Origin: Steroidobacteraceae bacterium
GTDB lineage: Bacteria > Pseudomonadota > Gammaproteobacteria > Steroidobacterales > Steroidobacteraceae
Direction: 5' to 3'
Length of the DNA stretch: 64,000 bases
Assembly (NCBI GenBank): GCA_025451845.1
Contig: JANWJS010000037.1
Span: 186,001-250,000, forward strand
Below the pieces are notes generated by a model. It saw only the letters and a program-made list of their open reading frames with translations. It was not told the origin of the DNA and did not search any database. Of the stretch, positions 10,751 to 63,321 are shown in pieces. A program made the translations under genes and the position numbers. Position 1 is the first letter of the stretch. Every line of letters starts with the position of its first letter.

Positions 10751-10819
10751 ATGCGCTGGATCCGGGCCCCTGCCCCGCCCAGCGCGGCCACCTGCGGCGG
10801 CGGGCACATCCCTGTGCCT
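10751..10819 (+). repeat. family A dispersed repeat, copy A1 (internal hairpin deleted)
   Basis: This 69-bp copy begins with the CGCTGGATCCGGGC arm, closes with CCCAGCG, then goes directly to GGCCACCTGCGGCGGCGGG and the terminal palindrome GGCACATCCCTGTGCC. The central A/T-rich terminator-like hairpin found in copies A2-A4 is missing. It lies between the divergent PEP-mutase-family and DMT transporter genes, where a bidirectional terminator would not be wanted. A TATGCT hexamer directly follows the element, upstream of the transporter GTG. Confidence 0.8.
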
Positions 10820-14844: not shown

Positions 14845-15918
14845 TCAGTTGCTCCTCGTCGCGGGCGAGCCGGTGTCTTTCAACAAGGACACTTGCAGCG
14901 TCCTCGCTCCGGCGAGCGCCCGCACACGGATGTGCGGGCCGGCGGGGCCGGCGCCCAGGACGGCCAGCGGCACTGCCTTCCGGGCGACGATGTCGGCGAA
15001 GAGACTCGGCTGCACTTGCGAGTAGTACGCCACCGGGTTGTTCTCACTCGGCCTGGCGAGCTGCTCATAAGCCTCGGCACCGAGTGTCTGGTGCGCGGCT
15101 TTCACCTGCGCGACCCAGGCAGCGAATCCCTGCCGCGGCAGGGCAATGGCTTTGAAGGTCATCCCTGAGAAGCCCTCACCGCTGTAGTTCGAGGAGAGCC
15201 CTTGATAGGTGCCCGGCTCATTCGCCAGCAGGTGCAGCTGAGTCTGCATGCCCGCCATGGCGTAGATCTGGCTGCCGAGCTGCGGGATGAAGAAGGCGTT
15301 CATCACCGTCGCGGAGGTGATGTGGAACTCGACCGGCACGTTCGCCGGGAAGGCCACCTGATTCACCGTGGCCACTTTCTCATCCGGATAGATGAAGAGC
15401 CACTTCCAGTCGAGCGCCACCGCATCGATGCGGATCGGCTTGACCTGGGAATCCAGCGGCCGGTAGGGATCGAGCGAGTGCGAAGACCTCCAGGTGATCA
15501 CGCCGAGGGCCGCGATGATGAAGCAGGGGATGAGCCACACCACGGCCTCGATCCTGTTGGAATGCGACCAGTCCGGCCGGTAATCGGCCTTCTCGTTCGA
15601 GGCCCGGTACCGCCAGGCGAAGATGAGGATGAGCGCAATCACCGGCCCGACGACGAGCAGCATGAGCACCGTCGCGGTGATGATGATCGAGCGCTCCTGC
15701 AGGCCGATCGGCCCCTTGGGATCGAGCACCGCCCATTGACAGCCGGAAAGCAGCAGCACGGCCGCGAGCGGCAGGAGCCTTGTTAGAAGTGCTGGAACCG
15801 GGCTCCTGCCCGGCCCAGCGCCTTCTCGGGCAAAAAGCGCGGCATTTGCCCGACACTCGGCCACCTGCGGCGGCCGGGCACGTCCTCGTGCCTCCATCGC
15901 TGTGTCTTGTCGCTTCAT
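14845..15918 (-). CDS. cyoA: cytochrome o ubiquinol oxidase subunit II, lipoprotein (start uncertain)
   Basis: The mature part is a clear CyoA: lipobox LLLSGCQ, two membrane helices, then a cupredoxin domain. The CuA cysteines are missing ([12 protein letters not shown] occupies that place), so it is a quinol rather than cytochrome c oxidase subunit. The C-terminal COX-aromatic-rich extension runs to the end. The start is unusual. No ATG, GTG or TTG lies close to the signal peptide; the first credible ATG (MKRQDTAM) is at 15918. Between it and the hydrophobic core, a 105-bp family A repeat is read in frame as about 35 arginine- and proline-rich residues. An ATG at 15897 and a TTG at 15987 are alternatives. 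Confidence 0.92.
15789..15893 (+). repeat. family A dispersed repeat, copy A2, inside the 5' end of cyoA
   Basis: A full-length 105-bp copy with all four hairpins: GCTGG...CCGGGCTCCTGCCCGG...CCAGC, a GGGCAAAAAG / ATTTGCCC arm pair, CCACCTGCGGCGG, and the terminal GGCACGTCCTCGTGCC. The last stem differs from A1 at a paired position on both sides (A-T replaced by G-C), a compensatory change. The copy length is a multiple of three and leaves the minus-strand cyoA frame open. Confidence 0.85.
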
Positions 15919-16010
15919 GGCTTGGGGTCGCAACGCAGTCACCGGTCTTTTTCGACGCGATGAGCATGACTGCGCCAAGCCGCTCAAATCCTTAGCTGTT
16001 CTTAAAATTG

Positions 16011-16110
16011 GCTAAAAGTCGCCTGCGGCGCTTTTAGCAGCCAGCCCCCCGACTGCGTTTGATCCCGCGGCCCAGGGAGCGGCCCTGGGCCGCTCCATTA
16101 CTTGCTTTCG
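16011..16110 (+). repeat. family B two-hairpin repeat, copy B1
   Basis: Hairpin 1 (16011-16038) is GCTAAAAG, bulged T, CGCC, loop TGC, GGCG, CTTTTAGC. Hairpin 2 is GCGGCCCAGGG / CCCTGGGCCGC with a five-base loop. The element ends with a GCCGCTCCATTACTTGCTTTCG segment related to the terminal repeat of copy B2. It lies between the stop of the winged-helix regulator and the cyoA start, on the 3' side of the regulator, and its A/T flanks fit a terminator. No left-end inverted repeat is visible here. Confidence 0.8.
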
Positions 16111-16133
16111 AACGTCGCAAGTTGTGGAGCGCG

Positions 16134-27289: not shown

Positions 27290-28723
<1,434 letters not shown>

Positions 28724-28744
28724 GGGTCTGGTACTCCAATGACT

Positions 28745-28855
28745 TGGGTGAGCGCCGTATGTAAATTCGCACGCCTCTGAGCCTGGCAGCTGGCCCTGAG
28801 CGCCGGGTCTTCCCCGGCGTCAGCCCATCTGTCGCAACGCTCCTCAGAGACGCCG
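28745..28855 (-). promoter_or_regulatory. S-adenosylhomocysteine (SAH) riboswitch
   Basis: On the minus strand the leader reads CTCTGAGGAGCGTTGCGAC, then a GCCGGG-type hairpin, then GCCAGGCTCAGAGG and finally ACGGCGCTCACCC about 20 bases before the ahcY ATG. GAGGAGCG-TTGC-AC, CCAGGCTC and CGGCGCTCACC are the conserved blocks of the SAH riboswitch class. CTCTGAG pairs with CTCAGAG to form P1/P2, and GAGCG pairs with CGCTC for the pseudoknot. Known members switch on ahcY when SAH accumulates. Confidence 0.93.
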
Positions 28856-28885
28856 CACCGCCGCACCGTTGCGGCGGGTGATTTG

Positions 28886-28993
28886 ATGCGCTGGATCCGG
28901 GCATCCTGCCCGGCCCAGCGCGGCCTCGGGCAAAAAGCGTGGTTTTTGCCTGGGGCTCCGCCACCTTCGGCGGCGGGGCACCTCCTTGTGCCT
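28886..28993 (+). repeat. family A dispersed repeat, copy A3
   Basis: A complete four-hairpin copy: CGCTGG / CCAGCG enclosing CCGGGC / GCCCGG, then GGGCAAAAAGCGTGG-TTTTTGCC, then CCGCC / GGCGG, then GGCACCTCCTTGTGCC. It lies between the metK stop and the ahcY riboswitch. The second hairpin has an A-run and a T-run on opposite arms, so it can act as an intrinsic terminator for metK on the minus strand. A TACAAT hexamer (28996-29001) follows on the plus strand. Confidence 0.85.
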
Positions 28994-29009
28994 GCTACAA
29001 TCTCGAGGT

Positions 29010-30182
<1,173 letters not shown>

Positions 30183-30206
30183 TGATTCGTTTCCTCATTG
30201 GATTGC

Positions 30207-30232
30207 GTAAAAGTCGCCTGCGGCGCTTTTAC
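30207..30232 (+). repeat. family B bulged hairpin, copy B3
   Basis: GTAAAAG, bulged T, CGCC, loop TGC, GGCG, CTTTTAC. Stem and loop have the B1 architecture, with the outermost pair changed from C-G to G-C. It sits between the adenosine kinase stop (30314) and the metK start (30182). A further GC-rich stem, GCGGGCGGGA / TCCCGCCCGC, follows near 30262-30290. The A/T arms make it a good bidirectional terminator for the adenosine kinase gene. Confidence 0.75.
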
Positions 30233-30313
30233 CGCGCAGGTAATGGGCTTTTTCCAGCCCGCGGGCGGGACTTGGATTCCCGCCCGCTGCGTCACTTCGG
30301 GGCGGCGTTCTCG

Positions 30314-31356: not shown

Positions 31357-31530
31357 AAATTGAGTGGCGAGGCCGTGCCACTCGCCATGCGGGGCGGCAG
31401 GCCCCCGGCCCACAGATCCATGCCTGGATACTCGCCGGAGCGAGCATCCGTTAAGTGTCCTCGCAAGGCACCGGCGGGGCCATGGCTGTAGAGGTCCACT
31501 TGGCGGCCTCCCGGGGCCGCGGCAGGCGTC

Positions 31531-38447: not shown

Positions 38448-38580
38448 GGTGTCTCTCCGGTGAAATGCGCGCGACCGAGCCCCTTATACCGGGCGGCAGC
38501 GGGTGAGTCACCGCAGGTGCATCATGCGCCGCGCGAGTGTCACGTCACTGGAACAGGTTGGCTGCCGGCTTCTCGGAATC

Positions 38581-38683
38581 GCTGGATCCGGGCTCCTGCC
38601 CGGCCCAGCGCGCCTCGGGCAAAAAGCGCGGTTTTTTGCCCGAGGCTCCGCCACCTGCGGCGGCGGGCCACATCCCTGTGCCT
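38581..38683 (+). repeat. family A dispersed repeat, copy A4 (best-preserved)
   Basis: A 103-bp copy. Hairpin 1 is GCTGG / CCAGC enclosing CCGGGC-TCCT-GCCCGG. Hairpin 2 is CTCGGGCAAAAA / TTTTTTGCCCGAG with loop GCGCGG. Hairpin 3 is CCGCC-ACCTGC-GGCGG. Hairpin 4 is CACATCCCTGTG. It lies between the 3' end of the efflux operon and the fghA start, both minus-strand, so hairpin 2 likely terminates the efflux transcript. An imperfect TAGGAT follows on the plus strand. Confidence 0.88.
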
Positions 38684-38740
38684 GACGGTAGGATTTTTGG
38701 GGCGTCTTGATTTCGGGGTCGACCGCCGATCGTTTGGCAA

Positions 38741-40273
38741 CTACTGAGCCATGCCGCGGACTTTGCTTGGCGACGTCACGGAGCCTTGCTGCGCGCTGTC
38801 ACTGCTTTCCCACCCACCGCCGAGCGCCCGGTAGAGCTGCACGAGATCGGCGGAAACGGCCGTCTGAGCATCCGCGAGCGACACTTCGTTCTGCTCCTCG
38901 GTGCGCTCTGCATCGAGGACATCGATGAAACTCGCCACGCCGCTCTGATAGCGCTCTCGCGCCAGCGAGCGGGCGCTACGGCTCGCCGTCACCGCAGTCT
39001 CGAGTGATGTCCGCCGTGCCTGGTCGGCGCCGTAGGCCGCCAACGCATCCTCCACTTGCTGCAGTGCCGCAAGCACCGTCTGCGCATACGCGACGGCCGC
39101 CTCCTTGGCCTTGACCCGTTGCAGGCGCACGGTCGCGCGCAGCCGCCCGCCCTCGAAGATCGGCAGCTCGATGGCCGGACCGAGCGAGGCGAAGCGGCTC
39201 GCCGTCTGGATGAGTTGGGAAAGTCCCTCGGCCTGAAAGCCACCCTCGGCAGTCAGCGTCAGCTGCGGAAAGTAGTTGGAGATCGCGACACCGATCTCCG
39301 CGGTCGCCGCGTGCAGGTTGGCCTCGGCCCGACGGATGTCCGGCCGGCGGCGCGCCAGATCCGACGGCAGCCCGATCGGCACTTCGGGCGGCACCGGCGG
39401 TATCGGCTGTTGCCGCTCGAGCTGTGCACGCAACGCCTCGGGCGGTCGCGCCATGAGCTCGCTCAGCTGATTGATGTCGATGGTGATCTCCCGATCCGCA
39501 AGCGGCACCTCCGCCTGCGTCGTGCCGACTTCGGCGGTCGCGTTCTCCACGTCCAGGTCCGAGGTCAGGCCCGCGTTGCGCCGGTCGCGGGTGAGCTGCA
39601 GCAGATCGCGCTGCGTTGCGAGGCTGCGTTCCAGGATCGAGCGGCGAAGCTGCGCGCCGCGCAGGTCGATGTAGGTCGCCGCCACATTGCTCATCATCGC
39701 GAGCAGCGCCGCGTGCGCGCCCTCGAGCGCGGACTGCGCCTGGGCGTTGGCGGCCTCGAGCGAACGCCGCTCGGTGCCGAAGAGATCGAGGGTCCAGGAG
39801 GCACCGAGGCCCAGCTGATACTGACTGTAGGGATTGACCAGGGTCGGCGGCAGGCCGGGGAAATGCAGCCCGAAGATGGCGCCGTTCGGCGTGTTGGTGC
39901 TGAGCCGCTGGCGCGACCACCCGGCGTTGGCCGACACATTGGGCCAGAGGCCGCCCGCCACCACGGCCATCTGCGCCTGCGCCTCCTCGATGCGCAGTGC
40001 CGCCTGCCTGACGTCCAGATTCTGCCCGGCCGACTGTTGCACGAGCGATGTCAGCGTCGGATCGTCGAAGGTCGACCACCATGCAACCGTCTGCCCACCC
40101 TGCGCAGTGACGTGTGCAGCGCCTTCGGTGCCGTTGGCCGTCGCCGTTGCGGACCATTGCGTCGGCACGTCCGGCTTCGGCTTGACGAAGTTCGGCCCCA
40201 TTGCGCAGCTTGCCAATATGCAGCCGAAGGAGGCGAGCGCCAGGGACCGCGCCACGCTGTTGGTTTTTGTCAT
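38741..40273 (-). CDS. NodT-family outer-membrane efflux lipoprotein
   Basis: 510 residues with a type II signal peptide and lipobox LASC (Cys about residue 23), then the MGPNFVKP start typical of NodT/OprM factors. Two outer-membrane efflux repeats follow, each with long helices and a beta hairpin; LDLFGTERRSLEAANAQAQSALEGA and RRPDIRRAEANLHAATAEIGVAISNYFPQL are the classic motifs of the two halves. It would form the trimeric TolC-like channel for the upstream HlyD-ABC genes, which is an unusual but sensible partner for an ABC-2 exporter. It is the last gene of the operon; stop and repeat A4 follow. Confidence 0.95.
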   Translation of the reverse strand: MTKTNSVARSLALASFGCILASCAMGPNFVKPKPDVPTQWSATATANGTEGAAHVTAQGGQTVAWWSTFDDPTLTSLVQQSAGQNLDVRQAALRIEEAQAQMAVVAGGLWPNVSANAGWSRQRLSTNTPNGAIFGLHFPGLPPTLVNPYSQYQLGLGASWTLDLFGTERRSLEAANAQAQSALEGAHAALLAMMSNVAATYIDLRGAQLRRSILERSLATQRDLLQLTRDRRNAGLTSDLDVENATAEVGTTQAEVPLADREITIDINQLSELMARPPEALRAQLERQQPIPPVPPEVPIGLPSDLARRRPDIRRAEANLHAATAEIGVAISNYFPQLTLTAEGGFQAEGLSQLIQTASRFASLGPAIELPIFEGGRLRATVRLQRVKAKEAAVAYAQTVLAALQQVEDALAAYGADQARRTSLETAVTASRSARSLARERYQSGVASFIDVLDAERTEEQNEVSLADAQTAVSADLVQLYRALGGGWESSDSAQQGSVTSPSKVRGMAQ

Positions 40274-46185: not shown

Positions 46186-47343
<1,158 letters not shown>

Positions 47344-57915: not shown

Positions 57916-58437
57916 ATGGGCGACGACGACGGCACTGCAGCATCTGCCGCCCCGAGCGGCGCCGATTCCTCGCCGCCCGCCTCCTGCGCCGCTGAGCAGA
58001 ATCTTCGAGTCGACTTCTACGTCATCGAGGGGACCACGGCTGCCGCACGGCTGAAAGTCGCCTGTCGCCTTGCGGAGAAGGCCTATCTCGCCTCCCAGCG
58101 CACACTCATCTGGCATACCGACCGCGCCGAGCTCGAAGCGCTCGATGATCTGCTCTGGACCTTCGCGGACGGCAGCTTCGTGCCGCACGATTGGCTGACA
58201 TCCAACGCCGCTGCTGCCGAAGCGCCGGTGCTTCTCAGCGCCGGCTCACCCCCCGCCGCGGCGTTCGATTTCGTCGTCAATCTCGCGGCCGATCCGCCGC
58301 CTTTGCTGCACTTGACGCGGCGGATCGCGGAAATCATCGACGGTGACGAGGGCCGCCGCCGCGCCGGGCGGGCGCGCTTCAAGGCCTACCGCGAGCTCGG
58401 CGTAGAGCCCGGCACCCACGCGCTGCGCGGCGAATGA
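57916..58437 (+). CDS. holC: DNA polymerase III chi subunit
   Basis: 173 residues. The chi fold begins at about residue 32 with RVDFYVIEGTTAAARLKVACRLAEKAY; LIWHTDRAELEALDDLLWTFADGSFVPHD is diagnostic. The conserved NLAADPPPLLHLTRRIAEII follows. The first 30 residues are an Ala/Ser-rich extension (GDDDGTAASAAPSGADSSPP) absent from the E. coli protein; the start may be later, but no other start codon lies near the fold. Chi links the clamp loader to SSB. It precedes valS by 69 bases, which include repeat fragment A5. Confidence 0.93.
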   Translation: MGDDDGTAASAAPSGADSSPPASCAAEQNLRVDFYVIEGTTAAARLKVACRLAEKAYLASQRTLIWHTDRAELEALDDLLWTFADGSFVPHDWLTSNAAAAEAPVLLSAGSPPAAAFDFVVNLAADPPPLLHLTRRIAEIIDGDEGRRRAGRARFKAYRELGVEPGTHALRGE

Positions 58438-58438
58438 G

Positions 58439-58464
58439 GCGGCGGCGGGCGCCTCCGTGTGCCT
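58439..58464 (+). repeat. family A fragment, copy A5, directly upstream of a TATAAT
   Basis: Only the tail of the element remains: GCGGCGGCGGGCGCCTCCGTGTGCCT, equivalent to hairpin 3's right arm and hairpin 4 (GGCGC / GTGCC, a G-T pair replacing A-T). It starts one base after the holC stop. A perfect TATAAT at 58466-58471, one base after the element, lies 36 bases before the valS ATG, so the fragment may carry part of a valS promoter. Confidence 0.6.
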
Positions 58465-61307: not shown

Positions 61308-61311
<4 letters not shown>

Positions 61312-62276
61312 ATGCGAATGCGGCCGCGGCGCCGGACCGTGACGGGGCGGCTCTGCAGCGAGCGCTCGCAGCCCTGGAGTCGGTGGTACTCGGCAAACCG
61401 CGACAGGTGCGGCTCTGTCTGACCTGCCTGCTGGCACGGGGACACCTGCTCATCGAGGACATTCCCGGCGTGGGCAAAACCACACTCGCGCACGCGCTGG
61501 CTCGGGTGCTCGGACTGGCGTGGCAACGCGTGCAATTCACCAGCGATCTCCTGCCGGCCGACATCATCGGCGTGTCGATCTTCGACCGCGCCAGCCAGCA
61601 GTTCAAGTTCCGCCAGGGTCCGATCTTCACGCAGCTGCTGCTCGCCGACGAGGTGAACCGCGCGAGTCCGCGCACGCAGAGCGCCCTGCTCGAGGCGATG
61701 GAGGAGCGTCAGGTCAGCGTGGATGTGACCACCCATCGCCTTCCCGAACCGTTCTTCGTGGTGGCCACCCAGAACCCGCAGGAGCAGCTCGGCACCTTCC
61801 CATTGCCGGAATCGCAGCTCGACAGGTTCCTCATGCGCGTGATGCTGGGCTACCCCGACGCCGCCCACGAGCGGGAGTTGCTGCGGACCGGGGACCGGCG
61901 CGATCTGATCCCCGGCCTCGAGCCGGTGCTCGGACCCGAAGCGGTCATTCGCGCCCAACAGCTGGTGCGCACGACTCACGTGTCGGAACCGTTGCTGGAT
62001 TACGCTCAGGCGCTCATCGCCAGAACGCGCGACCGGTCGGATTTGAAGCTGGGCCTGTCGCCGCGCGCCGGCCAAGGACTGATCCGCTGCGCGCAGGCGT
62101 GGGCGCGACTCGCCGGCCGCTCAGCGGTGCTTCCGGAGGATGTTCAGGCGGTCCTGCCAGCCGTGGTCGCACACCGACTCGAGCGCCGCGATGCCGGGCA
62201 GTTTGACTCACCCGGCTCTGGCGCAAGGGGGAACACGGCCGAGGAGCTGATCAGGACAGTACCCGTTCCGACATAA
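61308..62276 (+). CDS. MoxR family AAA+ ATPase
   Basis: 322 residues. Walker [15 protein letters not shown] (about 52-65), Walker [24 protein letters not shown] (about 107-129) and sensor [27 protein letters not shown]; all match MoxR. MoxR ATPases act as chaperones for metal or complex maturation. They are almost always found with DUF58 and transglutaminase genes, as here. The ATG overlaps the valS stop by four bases. A degenerate family A head (A6) lies right after the stop. Confidence 0.95.
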
Positions 62277-62278
62277 CC

Positions 62279-62305
62279 GCTGCATCCGGCATCCTGCCCG
62301 GGCAG
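62279..62305 (+). repeat. possible degenerate family A head, copy A6
   Basis: CGCTGCATCCGGCATCCTGCCCGG-like bases between moxR and the DUF58 gene match the first 25 or so bases of A3 (CGCTGGATCCGGGCATCCTGCCCGG) with two differences. Hairpins 2-4 are absent. The similarity is short, so this could be a decayed copy or chance. Confidence 0.45.
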
Positions 62306-62319
62306 GCGAGATCGAGGCA

Positions 62320-63321
62320 ATGGCGGCTTTTGCGACGCTCCAGGAACGCTTACGGCACCGCGCCGCCGAGTGGGCGCGGCGGCGCCAGGGTCCCGACCCA
62401 TTGCCGCTCGGGCTCGGGCGGCGGCGCCTGTACATCCTGCCGACGCGTGCCGGGATGGCCTTCGGGGCACTCGTATTTGCCATGCTGGTCGCGGGGCTGA
62501 ACTATGGCAACAGCGTCGCGCTGCTGTTCGCTTTCCTCCTCGCCGGCTTTGTGCTCGTGGCCATGCACCAGTGTCACCGCAACGTGCTGGGCCTTTCGCT
62601 GCTGGAGGCCGCAGCGAGCCCGCTCTTCGCGGGCTCCACCGGCACTTTGCGCCTCACGCTCCAGAATGCATCGCGCCTCGCACGCTATCGGGTCCAGGCT
62701 GCGGTGACTGGCGAAGCCGCCGTGGCGCTGGACGTGGCGGGCGGCGGCCGCGCCCAAGTTGAGCTGCCGATCCGGGCGGGCCCGCGCGGCTTGCAGCGAA
62801 TCGATCGGCTGCGAGTCAGCAGCTCGCATCCCTTCGGGCTGTTTCGGGTCTGGACCTGGGTACACGCACCCATCGTGGCCATCGTCTATCCGCGGCCCGC
62901 GGGCTCACTGCCCCCGCCTGCTGACAGCGGCGCCAGAGCCGGCACATGGCCGCGGGGTACAGCGGGCGCGGACGAGTGGCTCGGGTTACGTCCGTTCCGC
63001 GACGGCGACTCGCCGCGGCAAGTCGCCTGGAAGGCTTATGCGCGCGAAGCGCCGCTGCTCGTCAAGGAGTACAGCTCCACCGGCTCGCCGCTGCGCGTGC
63101 TGTCCCTGGACGCTGTCCGGCAACCCGACATCGAGTCGCGGCTCGCACAACTCGCGCGCTGGGTCGTGGACGCCGAGGCAGCCGGGGATCTGTACGGCCT
63201 CGAGCTGCCGGGCGAGCGCATCCCGGCGCATCGCGGCCCCGACCACCGGCACCGGTGCCTGGTGGCACTCGCGCTCTACGGCGCGCCGAAGAGCGCAATT
63301 CCCGTGGCGGCAAAGCGATGA
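62320..63321 (+). CDS. DUF58 domain-containing protein
   Basis: 333 residues. Two close membrane helices near residues 40-80 (GMAFGALVFAMLVAGLNYGN, ALLFAFLLAGFVLVAM) precede a soluble domain. The DUF58 signature is GADEWLGLRPFRDGDSPRQVAWKAYARE at about 217-245. It follows moxR, as in most genomes, and its stop overlaps the start of the transglutaminase-like gene (ATGA). Its function is unknown; the domain is a von Willebrand A-like fold in distant relatives. Confidence 0.94.
   Translation: MAAFATLQERLRHRAAEWARRRQGPDPLPLGLGRRRLYILPTRAGMAFGALVFAMLVAGLNYGNSVALLFAFLLAGFVLVAMHQCHRNVLGLSLLEAAASPLFAGSTGTLRLTLQNASRLARYRVQAAVTGEAAVALDVAGGGRAQVELPIRAGPRGLQRIDRLRVSSSHPFGLFRVWTWVHAPIVAIVYPRPAGSLPPPADSGARAGTWPRGTAGADEWLGLRPFRDGDSPRQVAWKAYAREAPLLVKEYSSTGSPLRVLSLDAVRQPDIESRLAQLARWVVDAEAAGDLYGLELPGERIPAHRGPDHRHRCLVALALYGAPKSAIPVAAKR

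Follow-up and report, generated by a model that had tools for sequence, protein, structure and literature searches.

At positions 38,581 to 38,683 of the 64,000-nt stretch of Steroidobacteraceae DNA analysed here (the window), four consecutive hairpins lie between genes in an arrangement that recurs elsewhere in the window, raising the question of what this repeat is, where it ends and how it became dispersed. A sequence-only reading had taken it for a unit of about 105 bp. Our analysis shows that the 105-bp repeat is the core of a longer, protein-free DNA element of ~175 nt, which looks like a new family within the known class of small hairpin-rich mobile repeats, not a new kind of gene. Judged from the sequences of its copies, it is quite probably a non-autonomous REP-like mobile element of this length with CTA as its target.

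Anatomy and distribution of the element

With a covariance model (R1) derived from 29 copies of the host genome, which include three of the four long window copies, these four were recovered at the proposed positions on the plus strand with 115, 113, 104 and 51 bits; the next match in the window has 21.9 bits (E=0.059). The copies and the parts of the focal one are as follows.

38569..38746, plus strand: focal copy, full length; core 113 bits; tail-profile match 38702-38746, E=1.1e-5
Parts of the focal copy: degenerate leader 38569-38580; four-hairpin core 38581-38683; tail 38684-38743, with the last CTA at 38741-38743
38580..38611, plus strand: hairpin 1 of the focal copy, CGCTGG..CCAGCG around CCGGGC..GCCCGG
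38612..38646, plus strand: hairpin 2 of the focal copy, GCCTCGGGCAAAAA..TTTTTTGCCCGAGGC, with the most compensated variation of all stems
38648..38666, plus strand: hairpin 3 of the focal copy, CCGCC..GGCGG
38666..38683, plus strand: hairpin 4 of the focal copy, GGCCACA..TGTGCC
38741..38743, plus strand: terminal CTA of the focal copy, which on the opposite strand is the TAG stop of the efflux gene 38741-40201 (minus strand)
28878..28993, plus strand: copy between metK (29010-30182, minus strand) and the SAH riboswitch plus ahcY (27290-28723, minus strand); 115 bits
15779..15941, plus strand: copy upstream of a cytochrome/quinol oxidase subunit II gene (14845-15759, minus strand); 104 bits
10743..10819, plus strand: short copy without hairpin 2; 51 bits, core match 10755-10819
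62279..62333, plus strand: probable remnant starting with hairpin 1; core profile E=0.0036
58439..58464, plus strand: possible remnant of hairpins 3-4; hairpin 3-4 profile E=0.24, alone not significant

The lack of hairpin 2 in the copy at 10755 had been noted correctly. The two fragments of the earlier reading both turned out to be weak, the one at 58439 especially. They begin 2 nt past the called stop of gene 61308-62276 and 1 nt past that of holC (57916-58437), respectively, which makes them plausible remnants. The copy next to metK consists of leader GTGATTTGATGC and a full core (28890-28993), with no tail detected. The copy beside the oxidase gene, whose product has PF06481/PF00116 matches and which is its immediate neighbour, carries leader CTTGTTAGAAGT, a core at 15791-15893 and a degraded tail at 15900-15941 (tail profile E=5.7e-4), and the short copy has leader CCTAGCCCATGC and no detected tail. 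Two of the four long window copies, including the focal one, have kept the tail. Compared with shuffles, the three full window copies fold with z-scores of -4.3, -5.1 and -6.2, the short copy with only -1.6. The gene at which the focal copy ends encodes an outer-membrane efflux protein according to the gene call and Pfam (PF02321).

In Rfam 15 at gathering score, the one window match is an SAH riboswitch (RF01057) at 28743-28851 on the minus strand, in the gap 28724-29009 ahead of ahcY. No match was obtained over the element in the window, and for a stretch with two full-length copies the best match had E=0.068, below gathering. Among open-licence papers, no description recognisable as the element was found.

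Across its copies, the element begins with a 12-nt leader (CTAGTNTGAAGC) and continues with the four hairpins; about one copy in three also has a tail of ~60 nt that contains a fifth hairpin, and tail-bearing elements end GGGGAACTA. The leader consensus was derived from 185 distinct junctions upstream of hairpin 1. In 90 copies away from sense stops, the motif is no weaker than in the 74 beside one, indicating that the leader belongs to the element or its target and not to the gene end. Downstream of the core, the tail motif CCGCTTCATG is found in 61 of 169 copies, compared to 5.35 in shuffled flanks, and lies 13-17 nt past the core in 56 of these 61. The ends are sharp, as many alignments of 165-180 nt share nearly identical boundaries, and the consensus of 52 full-length copies spans about 175 nt, with TCGATGGGGAACTA as its last letters. 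CTA tends to occur at both ends, in the best-preserved copies mostly as CTAG on the left and as AACTA plus any base on the right. Within the 52 full-length copies, CTA occupies the expected left place in 25 (CTAG is the commonest left flank, 17/52) and AACTA the right one in 18; both ends are as expected in 12, and the fourth base agrees in seven of these. No terminal inverted repeats were seen by eye in this consensus or in an alignment of 35 copies.

An internal repeat or outer stem, ATGAAGC/GCTTCAT, shows no covariation within the genus and one compatible change in another genus (ATGAAAC/GTTTCAT in locus L305). The tail can fold as a fifth hairpin (GTCGAC..GTCGAT, GTGGAC..GTCCAT), with one pair compensated in 12 of 35 copies. 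Support for hairpin 5 is modest and its controls are weaker than those for hairpin 2: for hairpin 5 and the outer stem, 93 of 500 shuffles matched or exceeded the pair-count measure, and one slid control (+3) gave 0.112 vs 0.129. In eight of 30 tail loci read by eye (L236, L244, L248, L249, L251, L253, L256 and L259), inner hairpins are replaced or extra ones joined. Five host copies (L019, L024, L072, L078 and L084) carry an alternative 3′ segment (GCGCAAGCCCGGG..) in place of the usual tail, which aligns across about 95-100 nt in four of them. We also observe head-to-tail tandems with CTAG or CTGG at the joints, a single CTAG serving both units, and other tandems joined core to core.

Further repeats are present in the window. 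A second dispersed family (16010-16111, 46203-46299 and 30205-30253) is made up of TAAAAGTCGCCTGCGGCGCTTTTA and GGCCCAGGGAGCGGCCCTGGGCC followed by a TGATTTGCTTTCGA tail, part of which directly follows a full-length copy of the element in L003. A third is an inverted pair of palindromic repeats at 14886-14945 and 31402-31461 (GGACACTT.., CCGCACACGGATGTGCGG); similar hairpins are joined to the element's tail in L256 and replace the element in L185.

The repeat is indeed dispersed and intergenic, with four consecutive hairpins, and many more copies exist in the genome and in relatives. The covariance-model search suggested earlier, run with the model built from 29 copies, returned 66 matches at E≤0.01 for the host. 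In its genome (4.40 Mb, 58 contigs), BLAST with the focal copy yields 42 or more matches with a length of ≥72 nt, with 40 of the 114 candidates from the first look scored. Among the candidates scored, the eight closest copies are 93-96% identical to the focal one, indicating that the family spread fairly recently, and the weaker matches suggest older rounds of spread.

Conservation analysis of 60 genomes, the host included, gave matches at E≤0.001 in 20, of which 19 are of the host genus and several match by short stretches only. In an order-wide search of 396 genomes, which scored two candidates per genome and therefore gives lower bounds, at least 25 match at E≤1e-4; they belong to at least three of 72 genera, all from the family of the host. 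In one genome per species across 84,980 species, an exact match to the hairpin 1 pattern was obtained in 91 stretches from seven uncultured proteobacterial MAGs plus one Micrococcaceae record; the viral contigs scanned gave none. The Micrococcaceae match (L174) was taken as chance, as it had no covariance-model match at E≤0.01; this check covered 80 of the 91 stretches. Copies from two further genera mostly form a comparable series of hairpins whose stems are largely different in sequence. The best-preserved copy of another genus (L305) has kept the CTAG-TATGAA leader, the hairpins, the CTAG ends, the tail and a head-to-tail junction.

All window copies lie on the plus strand, as had been pointed out, but the genome has 41 plus and 25 minus copies among the 66, on arbitrarily oriented contigs. 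The suggested link to replication direction did not hold up, as the mean GC skew in the orientation of the element is 0.0022 (s.e. 0.0031, n=148). Within contigs, 28 of 42 neighbours are alike in orientation (p=0.03), a concordance confounded by gene direction.

Pairing and covariation of the hairpins

When 28 distinct host copies are aligned with MAFFT without structural information, 95.0% of cells pair and 10 of 36 pairs are changed on both sides; the covariation score was reached by 0 of 500 shuffles. The excess covariation anticipated by the sequence-only reading is present mainly in hairpin 2, which across 162 distinct cores holds 302 compensated cells and 116 distinct arm pairs. The paired substitution in hairpin 4, on which the earlier argument for selection had been built, is seen in the window, but among the 162 cores the position is Watson-Crick in only 54 of the 157 that have letters there. 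It behaves as a loop and is poor evidence of selection on structure.

One-sided changes in the 162 cores comprise 87 G.T and 97 A.C if one mostly unpaired loop pair is left out, and 126 and 100 with it. Selection on a plus-strand RNA would predict that G.U wobbles are tolerated better than A.C mismatches; as G.T is not favoured over A.C, we see no sign of such selection on a transcript. Selection on structure can therefore be upheld in part: stems are compensated between subfamilies, but changes in single copies show no preference for G.U over A.C. Pairing is kept in the spreading lineages, and single copies decay without strand preference. Template switching from arm to arm could be another source of the compensated stems.

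Placement at stop codons

Genes were called with a home-made program based on codon usage. Among the host copies, 65 of 66 overlap no called gene and one overlaps by more than 15 bp, and the stop lies within 12 nt of hairpin 1 in 33 of the 42 host copies with a sense upstream gene. Gene orientation was classified for 164 copies with enough flank, 64 from the host and the others from relatives; copies common to several species are counted repeatedly here and are not independent. The classes contain 61 ++, 40 +-, 31 -+ and 26 -- copies; four further copies overlap a gene and two have no gene on one side. Hairpin 1 lies ≤12 nt from the stop in 72 of the 101 sense-upstream copies, where uniform placement in the gap would give 25.0. 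If the upstream gene is antisense, its start is found at ≤12 nt in 2 of 57 copies, compared to 6.0 predicted.

At the right end, 42 copies have both a recognised tail and a called downstream gene, which is convergent in 23. In 11 of these 23, including the focal copy, the stop of the convergent gene lies at one exact offset, the tail end, and ten of the 11 sequences show CTA there. Binning the stops of convergent genes gave no significant signal; measuring their offset from the tail gave a sharp one. Sense stops at left ends and antisense TAG at right ends would both follow from a target CTA that is read on the element's strand, and this asymmetry is not predicted by a palindromic duplex target.

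Of the 72 genes that end beside the element, 37 use TAG. The proportion is 13 of 52 for window genes (one-sided p=0.0025) and 6 of 29 for upstream genes in sense orientation that end farther away. CTAG itself is ~12-fold rarer in the window than expected from base composition (16 vs about 198), with three sites at stop codons, four intergenic and nine coding. TTAA occurs only six times in the window.

We also considered whether insertion shortens the encoded proteins, with the stop provided by the element, which is mostly not the case. Compared to element-free orthologues, the protein end is equal in 7 of 12 rows from nine queries (6 of 82 C-termini were left out, as the extracted end was not a stop). 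In four rows the orthologue is longer by 3-5 residues, two of these being only 45-51% identical, and in one it is shorter.

Mobility and alternative explanations

Comparison of sites with and without the element indicates mobility. In genome G035, one copy lies directly after a TAG stop (GTGCCC-TAG-TATGAAGC...GGGGAAC-TAG-TTAATT), and the same site without the element reads GTGCCG-TAG-TTAAGG in G080 and GTGCCG-TAG-GCTC in G000. To the right of the element, the G035 DNA equals that of G080 for about 4 nt and then diverges over ~120 nt, so that a target duplication is indistinguishable from element-borne ends. The gap between metK and ahcY contains the element in G000 and G035; it is absent in G034, G065 and G080, which by eye have other GC-rich inverted repeats. 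More generally, eight element-free relatives carry a long GC-rich inverted repeat in this gap whose sequence mostly differs between them (by eye). In several site comparisons the surrounding intergenic DNA differs as well. Such element-free sites, together with the head-to-tail tandems and the patchy distribution, argue for a mobile element.

The REP-like element would insert at CTA, usually within CTAG or CTAA, with CTA on both sides of well-preserved copies. Insertions would survive mainly where this CTA overlaps a stop codon: at the left end this would be the (C)TAG or (C)TAA of a gene that runs in the same direction as the element, at the right end the TAG of a convergent gene. Movement would probably occur as folded single-stranded DNA, by a putative HUH-type enzyme with specificity for the subterminal hairpins and cleavage at CT(A), like TnpAREP on REPs, and copying would be by transposition and not by recombination. 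Passages of PMC8266576 describe cleavage by TnpAREP at CT 5′ or 3′ of the REP, with which the CT(A) at both ends of our element appears consistent.

The main alternative is gene conversion or homologous recombination of intergenic hairpin arrays, with stem compensation arising by template switching between the arms, which we consider unlikely. It would account for the hairpin modules swapped or inserted in the eight tail loci, and the often differing intergenic flanks would fit replacement of whole segments. Moreover, the rpsA-type site occupied by host copy L023 is filled in the relative L185 by another palindromic repeat, of the same type as that at window 14886-14945. This repeat exchange favours recombination and slightly weakens the REP-like reading, and several palindromic repeat families in the genus seem to exchange parts and places. 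Against recombination speak the sharp ends common to the copies, the CTA on either side of the best ones, placement to the nucleotide on the stops of unrelated genes, and presence and absence between collinear genes.

Less probable still is an RNA element serving the host as a 3′-UTR terminator, mRNA stabiliser or ribosome-stalling hairpin under selection. The sense copies right behind stops are what such a role would require, a drop in translation is reported for REPs ≤15 nt from a stop (passages of PMC12306157), and other GC-rich hairpins fill the metK-ahcY gap of element-free relatives (by eye). Against this, 57 of the 158 classed copies are antisense to the upstream gene, one-sided changes show no wobble preference, the leader motif is unchanged away from stops, and Rfam gives no match to the element at gathering score. 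Very improbable is a MITE of an IS5-like DDE transposon with a YTAR/CTAG target: passages of PMC5493358 describe for IS5 a duplication of Py-T-A-Pu, mostly CTAG, and a CTAG/CTAA preference that our left flanks resemble, but no terminal inverted repeats were seen, the element contains no DDE gene, IS5-type DUF4096 (PF13340), the DDE family searched, is found in one of eight element-rich genomes, and a palindromic target predicts no fixed orientation, whereas here orientation follows the target strand.

Among known systems, the REP-like reading finds its closest parallel in REP/BIME sequences, which passages of PMC8266576 and PMC3733652 describe as high-copy, intergenic and palindromic, without terminal inverted repeats, in tandem clusters and in part located past stops. 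High copy number (66 matches) and a mostly extragenic location are shared by our element. Unlike a REP, described there as a palindrome of 20-50 nt, it spans about 175 nt with five hairpins and has CTAGTNTGAAGC instead of GTAG beside the palindrome, and no Y1 transposase was detected in the host genome. The element may thus work like a REP, but the missing GTAG tag, the five hairpins and the failure to detect a Y1 enzyme in the host speak against membership among REPs. Subterminal hairpins at both ends, a strand-specific short target at the left end and the absence of terminal inverted repeats are also features of the IS200/IS605 group, according to passages of PMC8266576 and our general knowledge; in contrast to that group, no Y1 gene lies inside the element, none was detected elsewhere in the genome, and the Y1 elements of relatives have other ends. 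Composite modules with strong secondary structure, some of them absent or replaced, recall the Streptococcus BOX elements, judged parasitic in passages of PMC3049150. This likeness concerns structure; unlike in BOX, modules differ in identity through hairpin swaps, and insertion is directed to CTA at stops.

The Y1 family (PF01797) gave no match in G000, a 97% complete assembly in which the gene may sit in the missing part, nor in the element-rich genomes G034, G070, G076 and G080; it matched in 7 of the 18 genomes of the genus searched, and the E. coli control matched. Y1 transposase was tried as the mobiliser and set aside, the ends of the element being unrecognisable in the 14 of 17 Y1 loci scanned (best nhmmer E=0.085; L097, L098 and L100, from other genera, were left out). 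In the search for an autonomous relative, at least seven tail matches among the loci examined have no adjacent core, and of 38 tail matches across 10 genomes the sequences of 30 were inspected. These loci look like copies that have degenerated or exchanged modules, and the space between their visible parts is too small for a gene.

As several element-rich genomes show no PF01797 match, we tentatively entertain a variant of the REP-like reading in which a family-specific single-stranded DNA element of interchangeable hairpins would be moved by an enzyme outside the known Y1/RAYT group. In this variant, the 5′-CTA-3′ target would place surviving insertions exactly on stop codons, and the element's own first G could complete TAG. 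As a secondary effect, copies ≤15 nt from a stop could slow ribosomes or shape mRNA 3′ ends; in E. coli, REPs within 15 nt of the stop codon lower translation, according to passages of PMC12306157. The wobble counts of our element show no sign that such an effect is under selection.

The family offers a countable system for an open question, the spread of palindromic repeats without a recognisable RAYT, and its ends, target and placement on stops are precise enough for direct tests. Its swapped stem sequences with pairing kept provide a natural dataset with which selection might be told from palindrome-correcting replication errors. For REP-like elements in general, our analysis calls for caution, since a sense position downstream of genes can follow from a CTA target at stops and not from regulation.
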